A stretch of DNA of 32,536 nucleotides, taken from contig JAUXNU010000181.1 in assembly GCA_030682655.1 (NCBI GenBank), forward strand, positions 1-32,536. Reading direction: 5' to 3'. Below the pieces are notes generated by a model. The model did no database searches and was not told where the DNA came from. It saw only the letters and a program-made list of their open reading frames with translations. The translations under genes were made by a program, and so were the position numbers. Shown one piece after another: positions 1 to 32,536 of the stretch. Numbering within the stretch: position 1 is the stretch's first letter; each line of letters opens with the position of its first letter. Source of the DNA: Actinomycetota bacterium. GTDB lineage: Bacteria; Actinomycetota; Coriobacteriia; Anaerosomatales; JAUXNU01.

Positions 1-1
1 C

Positions 2-550
2 AACGCAGAGGTGGACGTGCGAGAGCGACTGGCTCCCGACGTGCTGCAGGCCGCCGTGAGCATCCAGCTCCTGAGGACGGGCGAAGGCATCATACGAACT
101 GCTCCGCTGGTGGCCCGCAACCACCTGCTCCAAGGGGCGCCCGAGCCGACACGTGTGTTCTACGCCCGAGCTCTCATGACCGCGGGGATCGACGAGAACA
201 CGGCCGCCAGCGTGATGGTCAAGTCGTGTCGGGGCGACGAGCCGCTCGAGGCTACGGCGACCCGCATCGCGACCGTCTTCGCAGAAGCCCAAGCGCTCCG
301 CCCGTCCGAGTGGGCGGCGTGGCGCAACGAGAACGCGCTCCCCGAGCTCTCGGCGGGACTGCAGCAGACCGCGGCCACGCTCCACCTGCTCGAGCAGGTG
401 TCACGGCATCTGTCCCCACAGAGCTCGCCGGCGGCCCAGGAGGTTGCACGGATTGACTGGGGCAGGCTCGGACGAGCCACACGCCCGACAGGGCGCACGG
501 ACGGGGGTCGCGGCATGACGCTCGACCCACGCGACGGGCTGTCGTCTTAG
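2..550 (+). CDS. Hypothetical protein, probably 3'-end of a gene starting upstream
   Basis: The frame is open to the left edge of the window, so this is probably the C-terminal part of a larger protein; the first possible internal start is a GTG at 11. The visible 180 or so residues are mostly helical, rich in Ala, Leu, Arg and Glu, with no membrane segment, signal peptide or recognised motif. The last 30 residues are Gly/Arg/Thr-rich and look disordered. It lies 84 bases upstream of the chosen parA start and on the same strand, so it may belong to the replication or partition block of the element. Function is not recognised. Confidence 0.6.
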   Translation, partial: NAEVDVRERLAPDVLQAAVSIQLLRTGEGIIRTAPLVARNHLLQGAPEPTRVFYARALMTAGIDENTAASVMVKSCRGDEPLEATATRIATVFAEAQALRPSEWAAWRNENALPELSAGLQQTAATLHLLEQVSRHLSPQSSPAAQEVARIDWGRLGRATRPTGRTDGGRGMTLDPRDGLSS

Positions 551-621
551 AAGAACACTCCCGGAAAGGTAGTGCCAATGGCTGCTCGGTACGCTCAAGT
601 GGGCGCTGCCCGCGAATCGAT

Positions 622-628
622 GAAGGGG
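622..628 (+). promoter_or_regulatory. Ribosome binding site deciding the parA start
   Basis: GAAGGGG lies 6 bases before the ATG at 635. Another purine run (GGAAAGG, 563-569) precedes the alternative GTG/ATG starts at 572 and 578. The 635 start is preferred because ParA/Soj proteins normally begin about ten residues before the P-loop. Confidence 0.5.
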
Positions 629-634
629 ACACGA

Positions 635-1435
635 ATGCAGAGAACGACCAGGCGGATCGCCATCGCCTCGCAGAAGGGCGGCGTCGGGAAGACGACCACG
701 GCCTGGAACGTCGCGGCAGGGCTCACCGCCAAAGGACGCGACGTGCTCGTCGTGGATCTCGACGGCCAGTGCCACCTGACCACCGGCGTGCTCGGCGCAC
801 CGCCGGCGCGAAGCCTGTGGGACGTGTTGACGGATGGCATGACCGCAGAAGAGGCAATTGTGCCAGGCCCGGAGTTCGCCCTGCTTGCCGCCTCTGAGAT
901 GCTGTCTCGCGCCGACTACGATCTCGGTGGTCGGCCGGGCCGGGATTTCCTTCTCTCCCGCGCCCTGAAGGGCCGACGCGATCCAGGAAGCGGCACACGG
1001 GCGCCGGGTGTGCAGGACGCCTACGACTACATCATCTTGGACTGCCCGCCGTCTCTCGGCATCATGACCGCCAACGCGCTCGCCTACGCCAGTGAGGTCA
1101 TCGTTCCGGTCACACCGGGGCTCTTCGCCGTCAGCGGACTTGGGATGCTGGGCTCTGTCATCGCCGAGACGATCGACGCTGGCGTCAACGAGGACCTGGG
1201 AATAGCTGGCACCCTGCTCACCCAGTACGAGGGTGGTACGGGCCTGCACCGCAGTATCGCGTCAGCCGTCGAGGAGCAGTTCCCCGGGCTGCTCTACCCG
1301 CTCGCGATTCGCAAGAACGTGGCAATCGGCGAGGCGCACGCCGAGGGTCGAAGCGTGCTGTCCTACGCGCCGAAGAGCCATGGCGCGGCCGACTACACCG
1401 AACTCGTCGAGCATCTGATCAGGCAGGAGGGTTAG
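635..1435 (+). CDS. parA: ParA/Soj-family partition ATPase
   Basis: A 266-residue Walker-type ATPase that would segregate or position the element's DNA together with the ParB protein encoded next to it. The deviant Walker A motif KGGVGKTT is at residues 14-21, the A' segment DLDGQ at about 41-45, and the Walker B segment ILDCPPSLG about two thirds of the way along, followed by the usual ParA stretch TPGLFAVSGL. Length and motif order fit the chromosomal-type Soj/ParA family, with no N-terminal HTH extension. The parB start follows the stop by 2 bases, so the two genes are likely cotranscribed and translationally coupled. Longer starts at 572 and 578 are possible. A cargo-positioning or conjugation role cannot be excluded. 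Confidence 0.93.
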   Translation: MQRTTRRIAIASQKGGVGKTTTAWNVAAGLTAKGRDVLVVDLDGQCHLTTGVLGAPPARSLWDVLTDGMTAEEAIVPGPEFALLAASEMLSRADYDLGGRPGRDFLLSRALKGRRDPGSGTRAPGVQDAYDYIILDCPPSLGIMTANALAYASEVIVPVTPGLFAVSGLGMLGSVIAETIDAGVNEDLGIAGTLLTQYEGGTGLHRSIASAVEEQFPGLLYPLAIRKNVAIGEAHAEGRSVLSYAPKSHGAADYTELVEHLIRQEG

Positions 1436-1437
1436 GC

Positions 1438-2391
1438 ATGGGGCGACCGAGGATCGAGCGCGGCGCGAAGCAGGGCGATGTGATCAGGGATCGCGTGGCG
1501 GCCGTGGCCGCACGCTCCGCGCGGCCAACCAGCCTGCTCGGCCAGAGGACAGATAGGTCGGTGACCGTGCCCCTCGACCAGCTCCACCCGGACCCGCGCA
1601 ACAACGAGGTGTTCGAGCTCGGAGGCATCGAGGATCTGGCGCGCGATATAGAGGCCAACGGACTGGCCCACTACCCCGTCGTGCGTCCCCATCCCGAGCT
1701 CGAGGACGAGTACATGATCGTGGCTGGCCATCGCCGCCACGCGGCGCTCTCGCTGCTCGTCGAGCAGGGTCATGGTGGGCGCTTCGGGCAGGTGGCCTGC
1801 CACCTCGTGCCCTCCGATGACTTGGACTCCGGTGTGCTCATGCTCACCACCAATGTTCGGCAGCGCGACCTCTCCACACTGGAACGCATCCACACGATCA
1901 CCTTTGCCCAAAGCCTTGTCGCCGAGCTTCGCGAGGCGGGGCGCCTTGAAACGGGAACGACGACGGACGGCAAGATCGCCGAACTCGTCAACCTCGCGCC
2001 ACGCACCGTCGCTTACTACCGTTCGCTGACCAAGCTCATCGAGGGTCTTCGCGCATTGCTCGACGAGCGCCGTATCACGTTCACGACGGCACGAGAGCTC
2101 GCGCAGCAGCCCATCAATGTCCAAGAACGTGTGTTGGCACAGATCGAGTCGGGGGAAGACGGCGCGCTGAGCGGCGCGCAGGTCGCCGCGTTGACGGAGT
2201 CGGCGACGTCCAAGGAGCCGACCGTGACCAAGGCTCCCGACGCCGACAAGCTCATCACCGCGCTGGAACGTGCTGCCGAGAAGGTCTCGAACCTAGAGCA
2301 GACCACGCCAGATGAGATCGCCACGTTCACGCCACGCATCGCCGCCGTCGCCGATCTCCTGGATGCCATCACCGCCAAGAGAGGGATCTAG
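1438..2391 (+). CDS. parB: ParB/Spo0J-like partition protein
   Basis: A 317-residue protein that should bind centromere-like sites and stimulate the adjacent ParA. The N-terminal ParB/sulfiredoxin-like nuclease fold begins near residue 40 with PLDQLHPDPRNN, followed by the arginine-rich signature GHRRHAAL near residue 100, which in Spo0J proteins is the CTP-binding GERR motif; here the second residue is His. An HTH follows near residues 180-200 (GKIAELVNLAPRTVAYY). The C-terminal 70 residues are Ala/Glu/Lys-rich and helical and could mediate dimerisation. The ATG lies 2 bases after parA. No parS repeat was recognised by eye. Element-borne ParB-like proteins sometimes act as regulators instead. 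Confidence 0.9.
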   Translation: MGRPRIERGAKQGDVIRDRVAAVAARSARPTSLLGQRTDRSVTVPLDQLHPDPRNNEVFELGGIEDLARDIEANGLAHYPVVRPHPELEDEYMIVAGHRRHAALSLLVEQGHGGRFGQVACHLVPSDDLDSGVLMLTTNVRQRDLSTLERIHTITFAQSLVAELREAGRLETGTTTDGKIAELVNLAPRTVAYYRSLTKLIEGLRALLDERRITFTTARELAQQPINVQERVLAQIESGEDGALSGAQVAALTESATSKEPTVTKAPDADKLITALERAAEKVSNLEQTTPDEIATFTPRIAAVADLLDAITAKRGI

Positions 2392-2395
2392 CACC

Positions 2396-3484
2396 ATGGC
2401 TGAAGCATGGATCATCACCTGCGACGAGCGCCGGGCCGGAGCGCTCACGACCGGTACGCTCGAGGCCGGCGTCGTGCTCGCCGGCACGACCATCGCCAAC
2501 GTGGACACGCTGAAAGACGCGGGCGGCACTGCGGCAAACGCCGGGGTAAGCGTGCTCGTGCTTGATGCGGCGAGCAGTCCGTCAGAGACTGCGGTGCGCT
2601 CGACGATCGCGGCCGTGCGGCTGGTGCGCGGCGATGCCGTACGCATATTGCTCGTTGTCGACGAGTTCACGCGCCCTGGCGAGCCCCTCGTCATCTCGGC
2701 GCTGAACGACGGAGTCAGAGACATTGTGGCCGCGTCGCCGAGCGAGCTTGCAGCCACGCTTGCGATGGTGCTCTCGACCGAGACCAGCTACGCCGACGCG
2801 ATGCGTTGGCGAGGCGAGGACGCGCCGGCTCCAGCTAGGGGCGGCTTCATGTGGCCGGCGGCATCGGTCAAGCCACACGTGGTGGAGCGCGTCGTGGAGG
2901 TCGAGCGCGTCAAGTGGGTTGGAACGCCGGTCGTGACCGTCGCCGGAGCGCAGCGCCGCGTGGGCACCACGCACCTCGCGCTGTCTCTCGGCCGTGTGCT
3001 GCAGGCCCAAGGGCTGCGAGCGGCCGTAATCGTGCCGGCAGTCACGCTGGCGGCGCTGGGGGATACCTATGAGCTCGATTTCGACGGACTGGGCCGAGGG
3101 CAGCGCGCCGACTTCGACGGCCTGATGCTCGCAAGCGATGTCACACCGGGGGACCTGGTCGACGCCGAGGTCGTCGTGTGGGACACCGGCGTCTACGAAG
3201 ACTCTGCGGACACCTTCAAGCTCGGAGCGGTGCGTTGCCTTGTGTTCGGCGGGTGTGAGTGGGAGCTCGGCCCGATAAGCGAGATTGTCAGCAGCGAGCC
3301 CGAGGACGTGATCGCCGGCTTCACCTACTGCGTGACGCTTGCGACAGAGGACGATTTCGCGTTGTGTGTCGAGGATCTGGCGGGCTTGTCGTGCGTGCAG
3401 GTTGCCTTCCCGAGCGACTGGAAGGACGGGGCCTCGCGAGCTGACCTAGCCGCGATCGTTTCCGCGATCGGGCGGGAGGCCTAG
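2396..3484 (+). CDS. CpaE/TadZ-like MinD-superfamily protein with degenerate P-loop
   Basis: A 362-residue protein. The ATG at 2396 has a good purine run (AGAGAGGG) about 11 bases upstream and follows the parB stop by 4 bases; the frame is open further upstream, but that part overlaps parB. Residues 1-125 alternate short beta strands and helices like a receiver-type or pseudo-receiver domain. A ParA/MinD-like domain follows, with VTVAGAQRRVGTTH at about 180-193. This aligns with the deviant Walker A motif, but both lysines are replaced (GGVGKT becomes RRVGTT). A Walker B-like VVVWDTG comes later. Family knowledge: CpaE/TadZ proteins have this two-domain layout and localise secretion or pilus machinery. 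Here a role in placing the partition or transfer apparatus is inference, and ATP hydrolysis is doubtful. Confidence 0.7.
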   Translation: MAEAWIITCDERRAGALTTGTLEAGVVLAGTTIANVDTLKDAGGTAANAGVSVLVLDAASSPSETAVRSTIAAVRLVRGDAVRILLVVDEFTRPGEPLVISALNDGVRDIVAASPSELAATLAMVLSTETSYADAMRWRGEDAPAPARGGFMWPAASVKPHVVERVVEVERVKWVGTPVVTVAGAQRRVGTTHLALSLGRVLQAQGLRAAVIVPAVTLAALGDTYELDFDGLGRGQRADFDGLMLASDVTPGDLVDAEVVVWDTGVYEDSADTFKLGAVRCLVFGGCEWELGPISEIVSSEPEDVIAGFTYCVTLATEDDFALCVEDLAGLSCVQVAFPSDWKDGASRADLAAIVSAIGREA

Positions 3485-3486
3485 CG

Positions 3487-3798
3487 ATGCTCCCCACCCG
3501 CCGCCCGCGTTTGGTGGCGCAGCGCCGCGACAGGGATGCCCGCGCGGCACGTGCCGCTGCAGAGCAGCGAGCCGGCGAACTCGAGGCGCGCAAGGTCGCT
3601 GAGGCGATCGAGCGCGACCGCGCCCGCAGGCGCAGGGCTGCCACCCCGCTTGCGCGGGCTCTTGAGACGATCGGTGGCTGGGTCCTGTCGATCCTTGGCG
3701 CGCTTGCTGTCTCGCTCGCCCTTACCTGGCTTCTTCGCCACCCGCAAATGCTCGACTCGCTGACGAGCGCTGTGCGGTCGATCCTGCGCCTCAAGTAG
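3487..3798 (+). CDS. Small single-pass membrane protein with basic coiled-coil N-terminus
   Basis: A 103-residue protein. Residues 1-55 are very rich in Arg, Ala and Glu and look like a cytoplasmic helical or coiled-coil segment. Residues 62-83 form one clear transmembrane helix (IGGWVLSILGALAVSLALTW), and about 20 residues follow. The ATG comes 2 bases after the previous stop with a GGGAGG-type site upstream, so it belongs to the same operon. No family is recognised. Small membrane proteins of this kind are frequent in conjugation and secretion modules, where they anchor larger complexes; that role is inferred here from context only. Confidence 0.75.
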   Translation: MLPTRRPRLVAQRRDRDARAARAAAEQRAGELEARKVAEAIERDRARRRRAATPLARALETIGGWVLSILGALAVSLALTWLLRHPQMLDSLTSAVRSILRLK

Positions 3799-3885
3799 GA
3801 CGCCGCGCAGACGCGCCAAGGGGCGCTGAGCACAAAGTCAGAGACGGTCAGAGCGTTGACGTACGATTCCGCCGACAGGGAGCTC

Positions 3886-3893
3886 GAGGAGGG
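3886..3893 (+). promoter_or_regulatory. Strong ribosome binding site supporting a TTG start
   Basis: GAGGAGGG lies 6 bases before the TTG at 3900. It is the best Shine-Dalgarno match seen among the genes checked in this window, and the signal peptide begins immediately after, so the rare TTG start is well supported. Confidence 0.6.
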
Positions 3894-3899
3894 ATCTCA

Positions 3900-4820
3900 T
3901 TGCGGTTCGTTCGTTCAGGAGTGGCGATAGTGGTCGCGGCGCTGGTCTTCTGCGCGCCTGCGTTTGGCGCGGGTGGGCCAGTGACCCGTGAGGTTATCGG
4001 TGTAGCAGAGCCCGACGATGCGCTGTTCGCGCCGTCGGTCGAGGAGAGCGGCACGGTCTATGTGCTCGACAGGATCGAGTGGACGGAGCGGTTCGAACGC
4101 GACCGGAGCGTCTGGCACGAGGTCGAGTACGACTTTGGCGCGCAGGTGGGCCAGGTGGAGCCGCCGGCCACGCTTGCTGCGCTCTACCACGACGAGGTGA
4201 CGCGGGTCACGGTCGACGCGCCGCTTCGCTTCGAGCGGTTGGTGAGCGCCGGCGCGTCGACGCGCGGTCGGGAGATCGAGGTCTTCGTCCACACGAGCTA
4301 CGACACGGCGGCCTACGAGCTCGCGCCGGGGGTGTCGGTCCGCTTCGATGCGCCGACGCCACAGATCTCTGGTGTTGAGGTCTCGCGGGCGCTCCTCGAG
4401 GCGCTGCACTATGACCCTGCGGTCTACCGGCTGGTCGAGACCTCATGGACGGGGTCGGCGCGCAAGGACGGGGACAAGACTGTTCGCGAGGCGAGCTACA
4501 CCGTGGAGCGGGTCGCCGAGGTCCAGCGAGCGGTCTACGGCGGGGACGTGGCCCTGCCGGACGTGCTCGTCCACGACGGGATCGCCACCTACCGCTCTCC
4601 GACAACGGCGGAAGCTGTGACGAAGACCGCCGCTGAAGCTGTCGAGACGGCTGCCGACGACCCCGCCTCGCTCGTGCCGTGGATTGCGGCCGGGGCCGTT
4701 GCCGCGACGACGATCCTCGGGGTGCTCGTCTACTGGCGGCGGAGACGCCGCAGGGCGCTCGACGAGGATGACACCAGCTTGGAGCCCGGTGACGCTGAAA
4801 TGGAGGGCGAAGATGCGTAA
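3900..4820 (+). CDS. Exported, membrane-anchored surface protein of unknown function
   Basis: A 306-residue protein starting at a TTG. Residues 1-24 are a signal peptide (Arg-rich start, hydrophobic core, likely cleavage after AFGA). The ectodomain, about 25-255, is beta-rich and acidic, with recurring patterns such as WHEVEYDFG and REASYTVERV and no cysteine pattern or catalytic motif. Near the C-terminus are one transmembrane helix (about 259-279), a stop-transfer run of six arginines and an acidic cytoplasmic tail. There is no LPxTG motif, so it is held by its own helix rather than a sortase. The next gene overlaps its last codons, suggesting coupled expression with the other surface proteins. 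A mating-contact or adhesion role is possible but not shown. Confidence 0.75.
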   Translation: MRFVRSGVAIVVAALVFCAPAFGAGGPVTREVIGVAEPDDALFAPSVEESGTVYVLDRIEWTERFERDRSVWHEVEYDFGAQVGQVEPPATLAALYHDEVTRVTVDAPLRFERLVSAGASTRGREIEVFVHTSYDTAAYELAPGVSVRFDAPTPQISGVEVSRALLEALHYDPAVYRLVETSWTGSARKDGDKTVREASYTVERVAEVQRAVYGGDVALPDVLVHDGIATYRSPTTAEAVTKTAAEAVETAADDPASLVPWIAAGAVAATTILGVLVYWRRRRRRALDEDDTSLEPGDAEMEGEDA

Positions 4821-5523
4821 GCACCCGGTACTGGTCTCTGCTGTTCTCACCGCACTCGTGTGTGGGTGTGTGGCCGTGGCTGCATCCTTGAGTGCGCCAG
4901 ACGCCGGGAACGCCGGAGGTGCGGCGGGTAACACGCCGGATTCCACGTCCTCCGCGGTCTGGGGGTATGCGGTCTACTGGGACGAGTGGCCGGATACGGT
5001 GACAGCGGCCCCTGCCGAGGTGGTCGAAACCACCGAGATGGTCGTGGCCGTCGCGGCGCCTGAGGCGTCAGCCCCCGCGGGCGAGACCGGGTCTGCGAGC
5101 TCAGCGGGCAAGACGACTGCGCCGAGTCCGAGCAAGCCCGCTCCGGCACCTGCGCCGGCACCTGCGCCCGCACCTGCGCCCACACCGCCGCCCGCTGCGG
5201 CGGCACCCGAGGTCATCGGCGGGTATGGCGCGTCAATCGCGAGCTACATCAATCCGTCGGCGACCTATGACAGCACACTCCAAAGCCAGTGCATCGCCCA
5301 GGCGAAGCGCATGGCGCTTGCCTCGGCGCTATCGCACTCGAGCTACGCGCCGGAGAGCTGCGCCAGCTTCGGTGACGGCATGACAGCGCTTGGCGGGGGT
5401 GGGGGAGGCGTGGCCGGCGCTCTCTACGGTCACTGTCCGCAACTCGGCTCGTGCTCACGCCTCGGCGTGGGGCTCGTGCTCTACAACGGTACGCTCTGGG
5501 CTGTCGCGCAGGGCGGTGAGTAG
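4813..5523 (+). CDS. Exported protein with Ala-Pro linker and short CAP-like C-terminal domain
   Basis: A 236-residue secreted protein. The ATG at 4813 overlaps the upstream stop by 8 bases and follows GGAGGGCGA. Residues 1-25 form a signal peptide or lipoprotein-like leader containing two cysteines. A disordered acidic/Thr-rich part follows, then an Ala-Pro linker at about 108-131 that would span the cell wall. The last 100 residues contain AKRMALASALSHSS and a later GVGLVLYNGTLWAVAQ, resembling the first helix (with its His, H175) and last strand of a CAP/SCP domain. The domain is shorter than the usual 120-150 residues and lacks a clear central part, so it may be a degenerate or minimal CAP domain. 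Similar short CAP-like proteins occur in Gram-positive mobile elements. Its target is unknown. Confidence 0.7.
   Translation: MRKHPVLVSAVLTALVCGCVAVAASLSAPDAGNAGGAAGNTPDSTSSAVWGYAVYWDEWPDTVTAAPAEVVETTEMVVAVAAPEASAPAGETGSASSAGKTTAPSPSKPAPAPAPAPAPAPAPTPPPAAAAPEVIGGYGASIASYINPSATYDSTLQSQCIAQAKRMALASALSHSSYAPESCASFGDGMTALGGGGGGVAGALYGHCPQLGSCSRLGVGLVLYNGTLWAVAQGGE
5145..5180 (+). repeat. Three tandem 12-bp units encoding the Ala-Pro linker
   Basis: GGCACCTGCGCC occurs twice exactly (5145-5156, 5157-5168) and a third time with one change (5169-5180). The units encode alternating Ala-Pro dipeptides. The copy number could vary by slippage and so change linker length. Confidence 0.8.
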
Positions 5524-5527
5524 CTCC

Positions 5528-8200
5528 ATGGCAACACGCACGCTCACCACGCGCGCACTCCTTGCCCTCGTGCTGTTCTGCGGGTCGGCGGTCGGCCTGC
5601 CTGGCACGGCTTCGGCGGCCACCGTGTCGACGGGCGGCGCGGGGACGTCGTACTACGACGCATACTATTCGGGCTCATGGCACGATCTCCAGACGCCGCC
5701 CCACACAGTCGACGGGCAGGTTGCCTACTGTCTCGAGCAGGCGAAGGACTTCCCCCTCAACAACTCGACGTACGGCCTGTTCGACGCGGCCGCGCTCTAC
5801 AACTTCAATACGTACGTTGGTCTGCAGTCCATTCTTCACCGGGGGTACCCGTACGTGACCCCGGCCGGCCTGACCGAGACGCAGGCGCGCTACGCCACCG
5901 CGAACGCCATCCGTGCGTGGATGCGCGAGGCGGCCGGCGTCGGATACGTGTTCATGGACATGAGCACATACACGCAGGACGCTGCGACGTGGTCGCGGTT
6001 ACGGCCCGCTCCGGGTCTCGCAGGATCTGAGCAGATGTTCCGCTGGACAATCGACCTGGTGACGGGGGCGCGGAGCCGGGTCCTTCCGGCCCGGAGCGTG
6101 AGCGCCGCGGCCGTCACGCTCCGGCCGAACGCGGACTACACGCGGCTTGTCGGCCAGACGACGGTGTCGTTCAACGACCTCAACGGTTATTACACGGTCG
6201 CTGCGCCCGCCGGGGTCACCGTCACCGGCTACACGAGCTATGCCGGAGACGTGCTCACTGTCTCCGTGCCCTGCACCGCAGCCTGGATCGGCCGCTCGGT
6301 CTCGCTCACCCTCTACGGGTACGACAGCCGTGTGCCGGCCAACATCTTCTACTACGCCCCCGGTTCTTCGACCTACCAGCGCGTTGTATCCGCCCAGGCC
6401 GCCAGCTTCCAGGTCTCTGCTTCGGCCGCAGTTCCCGTTGGGTCCGGCTCCGGCGCTTTGCGGATCACCAAGACCGATGTGGTCGATGGCGCGCCGCTGG
6501 ACGGCGCTGTCTTCGAGCTCCTTTGGAACAGCACCGTCGTCGCTTCGGGCACGACGGACGCAGCGGGGGATCTCACGTTCACCGGGCTTGCCCCTGGCAC
6601 CTGGACGGTCAGGGAGCAGACTGCTCCGCAGGGCTACCTGCTCGATGTGACGCCGCATTCAGTCACGGTGCCCGATGGCGGCACCGCTGCGCTTGGGCTC
6701 ACGAACGAACGTGCCTTGCGGCCGGTCCGTGTGCTCAAGACAGGGGAGGATGGCGAACCTCTCGCAGGAGCGGTCTACGAGATCCGCGAGGCGGGGGGCA
6801 GCGTCGTCACCACTCTCACAACAGATACCGACGGCGCGGCTGAAAGCGAGCCTCTGCCGTTCGGCGACTACGAGCTCGTCGAGACGGTCGCCCCGCTCGG
6901 GCATGTGCTTGATCCCACCCCGTACGCGTTTTCCATCGACCGGACCACGCCGGTCACGCTCGAGATCTCGCGCACGGACGCCCGCACCCGTGGCACGGTC
7001 CGGATCGAGAAGCGCTCGGACGGGCAAGACGCACGGCTTCTGCCGGGCGCGGTCTACGAGATCTGGCGCGTGCGCGATACATCGCCGCTCGCCGCACCGT
7101 TCGATTCGGCCGAGGATCCGGCGGATCCAGCCGCGACGCTCACAACCGACGCCCAGGGCGTCGCACGATCCGAACCGCTCGAGTACGGGTGCTACTACGC
7201 GGTCGAGACGACCGCGCCTGTCGGCCACGCGCTCAATCCCACGCGTCACTTCTTTGAGATCCGCGAGGACGAGGCCGTGATCTCCCTTGAGCTCACTGAC
7301 GACGTTCTGCCGGTGAACCATGGCGGGGTGATGCTGCGGTACCGGAACATCTGGGATGGCACGGAGATCGCCAAAGCGTGGGGCTACAACGCTGAGATCG
7401 GCACCGAGTACATGCCGCGTGTCCGGGCCGAAGGCCTCGACAAGATGCCGATCGAGGGCTTCTCGTACGTGACAGCCGACTACGCACCCTATACCGAGCT
7501 CGTCGACGGCAAGCTGCTGGTCACGTACTGGTACCGGCAGACCCTCTCCGGGGGCTGGCTGAAGGTGCGCACCGGCGATGACGGCCGGGCGCGGCTCACT
7601 GCGAAAGACCGCGAGACCTACGGGCTGCTCTCGGATGCCGAGCTCTACTCCCGGCTCCTCGAGGCGAAGGCTGCGAACCCGGACGTGATCGGCTACCTCT
7701 CGATACCCGGCACCGACCTCCATGAGCCGGTGGTGCAGACGACGGACAACGTGAACTACCTCACACACGCGGCGGATGGCGATGCCGATGCGCGGGGCGC
7801 GATCTTCGCCGACTACCGCTCGCCGCGCTATGCGGGCGACAGCTCGCGGGCGACGCTGCTCCACGGTCACAACGTGCGGGACGGCTCGATGTTTGGCGTT
7901 CTCGCCTCATATGGGGACGCGGACTTCTGGGCGGCTCATCCCTTCATCCAGTACGTTGATGCAGCCGGCAACGGCGGGACGTGGCTCGTCTACTCGGCGC
8001 GTGTGGCCGATGGCTCCGACGACGCGTTCGCGTTCCCAGTCATGCGGCCGTACTCGGATCGCATTGCGCGCTGGGCGGATCGCTCGATTCTGGATCCAGG
8101 TTTCCGGCCGGATCCTGCCGGACGTACGCTCACGCTCTCCACGTGCGCGTATCACGTTGAGGACGGCAAGTTGCTAGTGCATGCCGAGCTGATCGACTAG
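5528..8200 (+). CDS. Adhesin-sortase fusion: thioester-like domain, three SpaA-like repeats, MucBP-like segment, class B sortase
   Basis: An 890-residue exported protein; the ATG at 5528 begins a clear signal peptide (cleavage near residue 30, TASA/A). Residues about 35-180 resemble the Cys-Gln thioester adhesin domain, with VAYCLEQ giving Cys68. The later TQxA-type motif reads TANA at 124-127, so the glutamine appears lost. Three SpaA/Cna-B-like prealbumin folds follow at about 309-395, 397-484 and 488-592, each with a GAVYEI-type strand and an AP(Q/L/V)G(Y/H) turn; repeat 1 keeps Lys315, Glu363 and Asn393 for an isopeptide bond. Residues about 598-672 look like MucBP. Residues about 700-890 are a class B sortase with HGHN (His781) and TLSTC (Cys873); the usual catalytic Arg position seems to be Lys881. 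No LPxTG or second membrane helix is present. Adhesin and sortase in one chain is unusual. Confidence 0.85.
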   Translation: MATRTLTTRALLALVLFCGSAVGLPGTASAATVSTGGAGTSYYDAYYSGSWHDLQTPPHTVDGQVAYCLEQAKDFPLNNSTYGLFDAAALYNFNTYVGLQSILHRGYPYVTPAGLTETQARYATANAIRAWMREAAGVGYVFMDMSTYTQDAATWSRLRPAPGLAGSEQMFRWTIDLVTGARSRVLPARSVSAAAVTLRPNADYTRLVGQTTVSFNDLNGYYTVAAPAGVTVTGYTSYAGDVLTVSVPCTAAWIGRSVSLTLYGYDSRVPANIFYYAPGSSTYQRVVSAQAASFQVSASAAVPVGSGSGALRITKTDVVDGAPLDGAVFELLWNSTVVASGTTDAAGDLTFTGLAPGTWTVREQTAPQGYLLDVTPHSVTVPDGGTAALGLTNERALRPVRVLKTGEDGEPLAGAVYEIREAGGSVVTTLTTDTDGAAESEPLPFGDYELVETVAPLGHVLDPTPYAFSIDRTTPVTLEISRTDARTRGTVRIEKRSDGQDARLLPGAVYEIWRVRDTSPLAAPFDSAEDPADPAATLTTDAQGVARSEPLEYGCYYAVETTAPVGHALNPTRHFFEIREDEAVISLELTDDVLPVNHGGVMLRYRNIWDGTEIAKAWGYNAEIGTEYMPRVRAEGLDKMPIEGFSYVTADYAPYTELVDGKLLVTYWYRQTLSGGWLKVRTGDDGRARLTAKDRETYGLLSDAELYSRLLEAKAANPDVIGYLSIPGTDLHEPVVQTTDNVNYLTHAADGDADARGAIFADYRSPRYAGDSSRATLLHGHNVRDGSMFGVLASYGDADFWAAHPFIQYVDAAGNGGTWLVYSARVADGSDDAFAFPVMRPYSDRIARWADRSILDPGFRPDPAGRTLTLSTCAYHVEDGKLLVHAELID
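6452..7303 (+). repeat. Three SpaA/Cna-B-like protein repeats
   Basis: Three consecutive prealbumin-like modules inside the adhesin-sortase gene. The matching pieces are LDGAVFEL / LAGAVYEI / LPGAVYEI at the start and APQGYLLD / APLGHVLD / APVGHALN towards the end of each. The lysine and glutamate positions for isopeptide bonds are kept in all three. The terminal Asn is obvious only in the first; repeats 2 and 3 show Arg/Thr/Asp there. The DNA is diverged, so these are old duplications. Confidence 0.8.
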
Positions 8201-8213
8201 AGGCCCCGCCGAA

Positions 8214-31751: not shown

Positions 31752-32536
31752 CTAGGGCGTCGGCTTCACCGTCGCCTTCCACGGCGGCCGCCGAATCGAT
31801 GCGATCGTGGAACTGCGCGCGGAGAGCTCCGAGATCTTCACGACATCGCCGGTGCGCGGCGCATGGACGTACTTGCCCCCGCCGATGTACATGCCGACGT
31901 GGTGGATGTGCCCCGCATCCCAGAAGATCATGTCGCCGGGCTGGATCTGCGACAGACTCACGCTCGTGCCGAGGCTGTTCCACATCCCGGACGTTGTGCC
32001 CCGGCCTGAGAAGTTGGCGTAGCGCCACATGATCCAGTCCACCAGCCCGGAGCAGTCGAACGTCTGCGGGCCCGTTGCGCCCCACACGTACGGGCAGCCG
32101 AGGACGGACAGGGCGAGCCGCACCGGCGGGAAGTTGACCGCGACCCCGGACCTGTCTAGTTTGCCCAGCACCTCAGGGGTGAGTGCCGTCGCGCCGGGGC
32201 CACCGGCGCCGTTGAGCCCGGAGGCATCCAGCACCTGCCCGTTCTCGTCGAACGTGCCCAGGATGGCGAGGTAGCGCTCGGCGGCCTGCCCGGCCTCCGC
32301 GCCCGTGAACGCCGCGCCAGCCGGGGCAAGCTTCGGCGCGAGGTCGGCGACCGGTGGGTACGTGCTCGTGGCGAGCACCGTGCTCGGACCCTCGGCTGTG
32401 TAGGTGTAGGCGATCGAGGAGCGCACAAGGTCGTAGACGGCGTTGGGGTCAGCCTTCGTGAAGTCCTGGTCGCACTGGACGGCCGACAGCGCCAGGAGAT
32501 AGCGCCACGTCGGCAGGTCGAGATCGGCGTTCACCG
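31752..32536 (-). CDS. NlpC/P60 cell-wall endopeptidase, N-terminus beyond window
   Basis: The frame runs open to the right window edge, so only the C-terminal 260 or so residues are seen. The last 125 form an NlpC/P60 (C40) domain: ALSVLGCPYVWGATGPQ, catalytic Cys in TFDCSGLVDW (visible residue 161), GDMIFWD, the catalytic His in HHVGMYIGGG (212) and a third polar residue in YVHAPRTGD (His224). The part before (WRYLLALSAVQCDQDF) resembles the linker region of element-borne lysozyme/NlpC-P60 enzymes such as Tn916 Orf14 relatives. It would cleave peptide stems of peptidoglycan to let the transfer apparatus through. It is convergent with the defence operon and probably the last gene of a - strand transfer operon lying to the right. 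Confidence 0.88.
   Translation of the reverse strand, partial: VNADLDLPTWRYLLALSAVQCDQDFTKADPNAVYDLVRSSIAYTYTAEGPSTVLATSTYPPVADLAPKLAPAGAAFTGAEAGQAAERYLAILGTFDENGQVLDASGLNGAGGPGATALTPEVLGKLDRSGVAVNFPPVRLALSVLGCPYVWGATGPQTFDCSGLVDWIMWRYANFSGRGTTSGMWNSLGTSVSLSQIQPGDMIFWDAGHIHHVGMYIGGGKYVHAPRTGDVVKISELSARSSTIASIRRPPWKATVKPTP

Follow-up and report, generated by a model that had tools for sequence, protein, structure and literature searches.

An adhesin-sortase fusion gene in the backbone of a conjugative element

The window, by which we mean the whole stretch of 32,536 nucleotides that was analyzed, carries on its forward strand a complete gene (positions 5528-8200) whose uninterrupted open reading frame contains no internal stop and translates into 890 residues. 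From N- to C-terminus, the encoded protein comprises a Sec signal peptide, a class II thioester domain, three SpaA/CnaB repeats, a MucBP-like segment and a class B sortase fold. A sequence-only reading of this DNA had placed adhesin and sortase in one polypeptide, which was confirmed by full-length homologues in other genomes. Because the single frame recurs at full length in six further MAGs (G031, G045, G059, G079, G113 and G071), an assembly or frameshift artefact is excluded, and with it a missed stop or start separating the sortase from the adhesin.

The ATG of the fusion gene lies 4 nt downstream of the stop codon of the preceding gene, and the fusion gene is therefore probably co-transcribed with two genes for small surface proteins upstream. 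The first of these (3900-4820, forward strand) encodes a 306-residue protein with a signal peptide, one C-terminal membrane helix and no family match. It overlaps the second (4813-5523, forward strand), which lies directly upstream of the fusion and encodes a small, secreted-looking protein of 236 residues without a Pfam or NCBIfam match; this product has a Pro/Ala-rich linker and a conserved, Cys-containing C-terminal domain. Farther upstream on the same strand, family profiles match a ParA-like ATPase (572-1435) and, below curated cut-offs, a ParB-like protein (1438-2391), both of which belong to the backbone of the element described below.

Synteny showed that positions 1-8205 and 31,779-32,536 of the window are conserved in other genomes (DNA identity about 87-95%). 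Between these flanks, 23.6 kb are replaced by unrelated DNA in each copy. This intervening region (8206-31,778) is a cargo hotspot that separates the fusion gene from the conjugation module, the first gene of which, encoding an NlpC/P60 wall hydrolase (31,752-32,534, reverse strand; synteny and family profile match), is cut by the contig end. A complete element is present in G045, where the tRNA-Glu end recurs as an exact 26-bp repeat that bounds the element (contig positions 34795 and 79914). It contains a tyrosine integrase gene overlapping the tRNA-Glu, followed by genes for a MobP3 relaxase, ParA and ParB, the fusion gene, cargo, and genes for NlpC/P60, VirB4 and VirD4 (CD1115 family). With an integrase at a tRNA gene, direct repeats, a relaxase, a coupling protein and VirB4, the element in G045 is an integrative and conjugative element (ICE); the window contig itself contains only a part of its copy. 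Since conserved flanks bracket the variable 23.6 kb, and given the gene order in G045, the fusion gene belongs to the element backbone, beside the cargo hotspot. The cargo of the window is a defense island (9246-31,607; PADLOC, E down to 8e-300) with a DruE/DrmA-like helicase, a DpdE/DrmD-like helicase, a DrmMI/type IIG-like methyltransferase, PDC-S19, a McrBC-like pair and an Avs2 homologue.

Homologues were sought in 398 genomes of the class Coriobacteriia. The linker and sortase matched at 92-97% identity in G031, G045, G059, G079, G113, G117 and G121, and at 67% in G071. Complete fusions, of about 890-1017 residues and with at least three SpaA repeats, are encoded by the six further MAGs, which belong to different genera and families; the three copies in G117 and G121 are cut by contig ends. 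Where named, the fusion-bearing genomes are MAGs called Actinobacteria or Coriobacteriia bacterium. All domains of the fusion are under purifying selection, with dN/dS (Nei-Gojobori) between 0.04 and 0.36 for every domain and pair; in the sortase domain the ratio is 0.09-0.24, and against the most divergent copy it is 0.17, the lowest of all domains.

A query spanning the junction found no adhesin-sortase fusion outside this element family in 296 Actinomycetota and 398 Firmicutes genomes, both sets being samples rather than all public data, and its Firmicutes matches were free sortases of 237-351 residues only. Two scans of viral contigs gave no relatives, and a plasmid scan gave matches to the SpaA repeats only, none covering 80%. 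Thirteen other long sortase frames in the class were followed without an adhesin fusion being seen; several of them are probably mere long open frames in G+C-rich DNA. No sortase-adhesin fusion was found in open-licence papers.

Thioester-domain head and SpaA stalk

The chain begins with a Sec-type signal peptide (residues 1-30, positions 5528-5617, forward strand), with a putative cleavage site placed by inspection only between ASA and ATV. In a hydropathy scan, the sole hydrophobic stretch of the protein is this N-terminal one (residues 6-30), and the 890 residues have no C-terminal sorting signal, that is, no LPxTG-like motif followed by a hydrophobic stretch and a basic tail. The earlier statement that the chain lacks both an LPxTG and a second membrane helix thus holds. 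The only two LPxTG-like strings are LPGTA (residues 24-28) and an IPGTD within the sortase fold. LPGTA was rejected as a self-sorting site, as it lies within the signal peptide and is unconserved in the copies L034 and L038, and a lipoprotein was likewise rejected, with no lipobox seen by inspection.

The head of the protein (residues about 31-306, positions 5618-6445, forward strand) was assigned to the class II thioester domains from Pfam, profile alignment, Foldseek and published motif definitions (PMC6194298). PF08341 (TED) matches residues 65-128 with 22.5 bits against a cut-off of 22. In class II domains the bond joins a Cys in a [YFL]C-hydrophobic-hydrophilic motif to a Gln that lies some 170-205 residues farther on in a weak hydrophobic-Q motif (PMC6194298). 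The predicted pair here is Cys68, in YCLE, and Gln284, in YQRVV, at a distance of 216 residues; both are invariant in 14 relatives, TIE-pLS20 included. Residues 124-127 read TANA where a TQxA motif is expected. We rejected this as a loss of the thioester Gln, since the TQxA-type helix motif is non-essential in class II domains, the bond-forming Gln sits in another motif (PMC6194298) and Gln284 is invariant. A model of the head alone, of moderate confidence (pLDDT 81.5, pTM 0.78), has its only significant PDB match in the class II domain 6fwy (Foldseek E 5e-8), at a modest TM of about 0.4. The thioester-like domain of the earlier reading is supported, and by its residues the head appears to be a thioester domain of the working type, with the bond-forming pair intact.

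The stalk (residues about 307-595, positions 6446-7312, forward strand) consists of three SpaA domains (PF17802, 174.8 bits), as had been claimed. Their predicted isopeptide triads are K315/E363/N393, K404/E452/D484 and K495/E560/D591, and these nine Lys, Glu and Asn/Asp residues are invariant across seven sequences. With the pair Cys68/Gln284 and all three isopeptide triads intact, the protein is a TIE-type adhesin. The stalk is followed by a linker (residues about 596-700, positions 7313-7627, forward strand) that had been described as MucBP-like. This segment is conserved in all fusions, but it goes unrecognized by Pfam (residues about 598-690, no match at E≤1), so that the label denotes a resemblance only. 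When the full chain was modeled, the mean pLDDT was 69.5 and the head was poor; the top PDB match was BaTIE (6fwv; Foldseek E 8.6e-38, 520 columns), with SrtB structures next.

A sortase domain with lysine in place of the catalytic arginine

The C-terminal domain (residues 701-890, positions 7628-8197, forward strand) has a class B sortase fold, as indicated by Pfam, NCBIfam, Foldseek and alignment. PF04203 (Sortase) matches residues 724-888 with 33.5 bits against a cut-off of 26.6, and in the full-chain model the domain resembles SrtB structures (Foldseek E about 1e-14, TMt up to 0.85). The class B profile TIGR03064 matches residues 711-884 (E 9.5e-29), but its 100.4 bits lie under the cut-off of 153.75. 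In Clostridioides difficile SrtB the catalytic residues are C226, H133 and R234, the Arg standing eight residues past the Cys (PMC4371152). The fused domain keeps Cys873 and His781, but the position of the catalytic Arg, 881, is occupied by Lys in ten of ten fused copies, leaving the His-Cys-Arg triad incomplete. In unfused class B-like sortases of Coriobacteriia and Firmicutes, by contrast, Arg is present in 46 of 46, with Cys and His again invariant, which marks the change as particular to the fusion. The class B assignment thus stands for the fold, while the family cut-off and the catalytic Arg do not bear it out. To judge from the alignment, the substitution is old enough to be common to a 57%-identical copy and has been kept under selection; Lys881 may abolish, slow or merely tolerate catalysis. 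As it replaces the canonical Arg in every copy, labeling the fused sortase an active enzyme is unsafe.

Directly downstream of the fusion gene, two copies retain degenerate fragments from a second class B sortase (L035, G045 contig 57474-57782; L039, 1121-1300), which are 68-72% identical to a sortase in locus L042 of genome G147. In L033, L034 and L037 the fusions have C-termini that resemble this second sortase, which suggests recombination. The L042 sortase itself (3910-4581) bears the Arg and is 51% identical to the fused one, but it is truncated, lacks a signal peptide and lies not far downstream of a tRNA-like sequence, and it may be what remains of another element; we therefore did not take it as proof of a free partner.

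Probable function in mating and comparison with known systems

Encoded by a conjugative element, the protein is a TIE adhesin that has its own Arg-less sortase domain built in. On balance, we favor the view that it serves as the mating-pair adhesin of the ICE, and that its sortase domain fastens it, through a covalent bond or by binding, to the donor envelope; a scaffold or anchor is our preferred reading of that domain. The chain would be secreted, and its thioester head would point away from the donor and bond to, or tightly grip, an amine on the recipient surface, as proposed for TIE-pLS20. Somewhat less surely, the sortase domain would replace the missing LPxTG tail by binding a sorting signal or a peptidoglycan precursor on the donor envelope, possibly, because of the Lys for Arg, as an acyl-enzyme that turns over slowly or is trapped. 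Full conservation of Cys and His would be superfluous in a pure binding module, which speaks against anchoring by binding, and no substrate or wall-binding motif recognized by the domain is known. It is unlikely, though conceivable, that the Lys-bearing sortase acts as a one-shot anchor, taking a sorting-signal protein or wall precursor and stalling as a long-lived acyl-enzyme that ties the adhesin covalently to the donor. Were this so, the fusion would be a natural case of an enzyme used as a wall tag in place of an LPxTG tail.

Three other explanations were weighed. The one that survives best, which we regard as possible rather than probable, is that the fused domain is a normal, active transpeptidase working in trans on surface proteins of the host or the element, the adhesin placing it at the contact and the Lys costing a tolerable loss of rate. 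The invariant Cys873 and His781, which the 46 unfused relatives share, purifying selection on the domain and a predicted fold near those of solved SrtB enzymes all fit an active enzyme; the catalytic Arg, however, is missing in all copies, the element yielded no open reading frame that carries a sorting signal, and where other class B sortases have a membrane anchor, the chain has none but a signal peptide that is probably cleaved off. The same search leaves the suggestion that the enzyme acts on a neighbor with no candidate, and the suggestion that it acts on itself is unsupported, there being no conserved sorting motif in the chain. Quite unlikely, in our view, is a catalytically dead remnant of a gene fusion, kept as a spacer only: the loss of the Arg and the decayed second-sortase pieces downstream in two copies would agree with it, whereas the Cys and His are invariant and the dN/dS of the domain is as low as described above. 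Least probable of all is a self-polymerizing pilin, with every sortase domain coupling the chain that bears it to a further one and so taking the place of a distinct pilin and its sortase. In its favor, Clostridial relatives are encoded in a pilus operon alongside a major pilin and a pair of class C sortases, and class B sortases of pili exist (4y4q, 3psq). Against it, the chain has no conserved sorting motif, no shaft pilin gene was found in the element backbone, and three or four repeats make a short stalk.

An anchoring role for the sortase domain also agrees with its place in the chain. Among the relatives of head and stalk that genomes yielded, the most remote are Clostridial thioester-SpaA adhesins (L076-L080; 33-42% identity over the head), which share the variant helix motif ATANAIR with the fusion head and lie in mobile-element-like loci. 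They are not fused, and where complete they terminate in an LPxTG-type motif (LPETG), a membrane helix and a basic K/R tail; a Coriobacteriia relative in G038 ends in a membrane helix and the basic tail KKFR. As unfused relatives carry these signals there, the sortase domain sits at the position of the sorting signal. Most of the Clostridial adhesin genes are followed by those for an LPxTG (LPQTG) major pilin and two class C sortases. The pilus operon of L076 lies between upstream ParA/ParB genes and a downstream VirD4-like gene; the thioester tip adhesin may serve mating there too.

Among characterized proteins, BaTIE of Bacillus anthracis (PDB 6FWV) has a class II thioester domain and three CnaB domains in the same order as the fusion, with Lys/Glu/Asn-Asp triads of the same kind. 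Unlike the fusion, it ends in an LPATG sorting signal through which a separate sortase anchors it, and it has no known conjugation role. Class B sortases (SrtB, TIGR03064, and the pilus forms) have the fold, Cys and His in common with the fused domain, but they are separate, membrane-anchored enzymes with a catalytic Arg, whereas the fused domain has no nearby membrane helix, carries Lys for Arg and scores below the family cut-off. Naturally occurring, conserved and kept under selection, a change from Arg to Lys in a sortase triad would tell the role of the Arg, and the Lys-bearing domain could yield a usefully stalling sortase.

The closest characterized relative in kind is TIE-pLS20 (p34) of the Bacillus subtilis plasmid pLS20, a conjugation-operon adhesin whose own Cys68 is needed for efficient mating, which a C68S change abolishes (PMC8092201). 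Like the fusion, it combines a class II thioester head, a stalk and the absence of an LPxTG on a conjugative element that also encodes a CD1115-family VirD4. It differs in lacking a sortase domain and in having an unrelated C-terminal region, and the similarity is detectable by profile only (hhalign probability 93.6, E 2e-7), with YCLE aligned to YCID and YQRVV to YQRLM. By eye, the TIE-pLS20 stalk after the thioester domain (L084, 6477-8780) is MucBP-repeat-like rather than CnaB. By analogy with TIE-pLS20, and with the gene in the backbone of an ICE, a function of the fusion in mating is the likely one, and the idea of a role in mating contact, like the fusion, the thioester character and the mobile-element link, is what stands of the earlier interpretation, in contrast to the self-acting and neighbor-acting enzyme. 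TIE-pLS20 does not need host sortases, and how it is anchored on the donor is an open question (PMC8092201). With its sorting tail swapped for an Arg-less sortase, the fusion makes the mode of retention of such an adhesin on the cell directly testable, and it points to the C-terminus as the attachment module of LPxTG-less Gram-positive conjugation adhesins.
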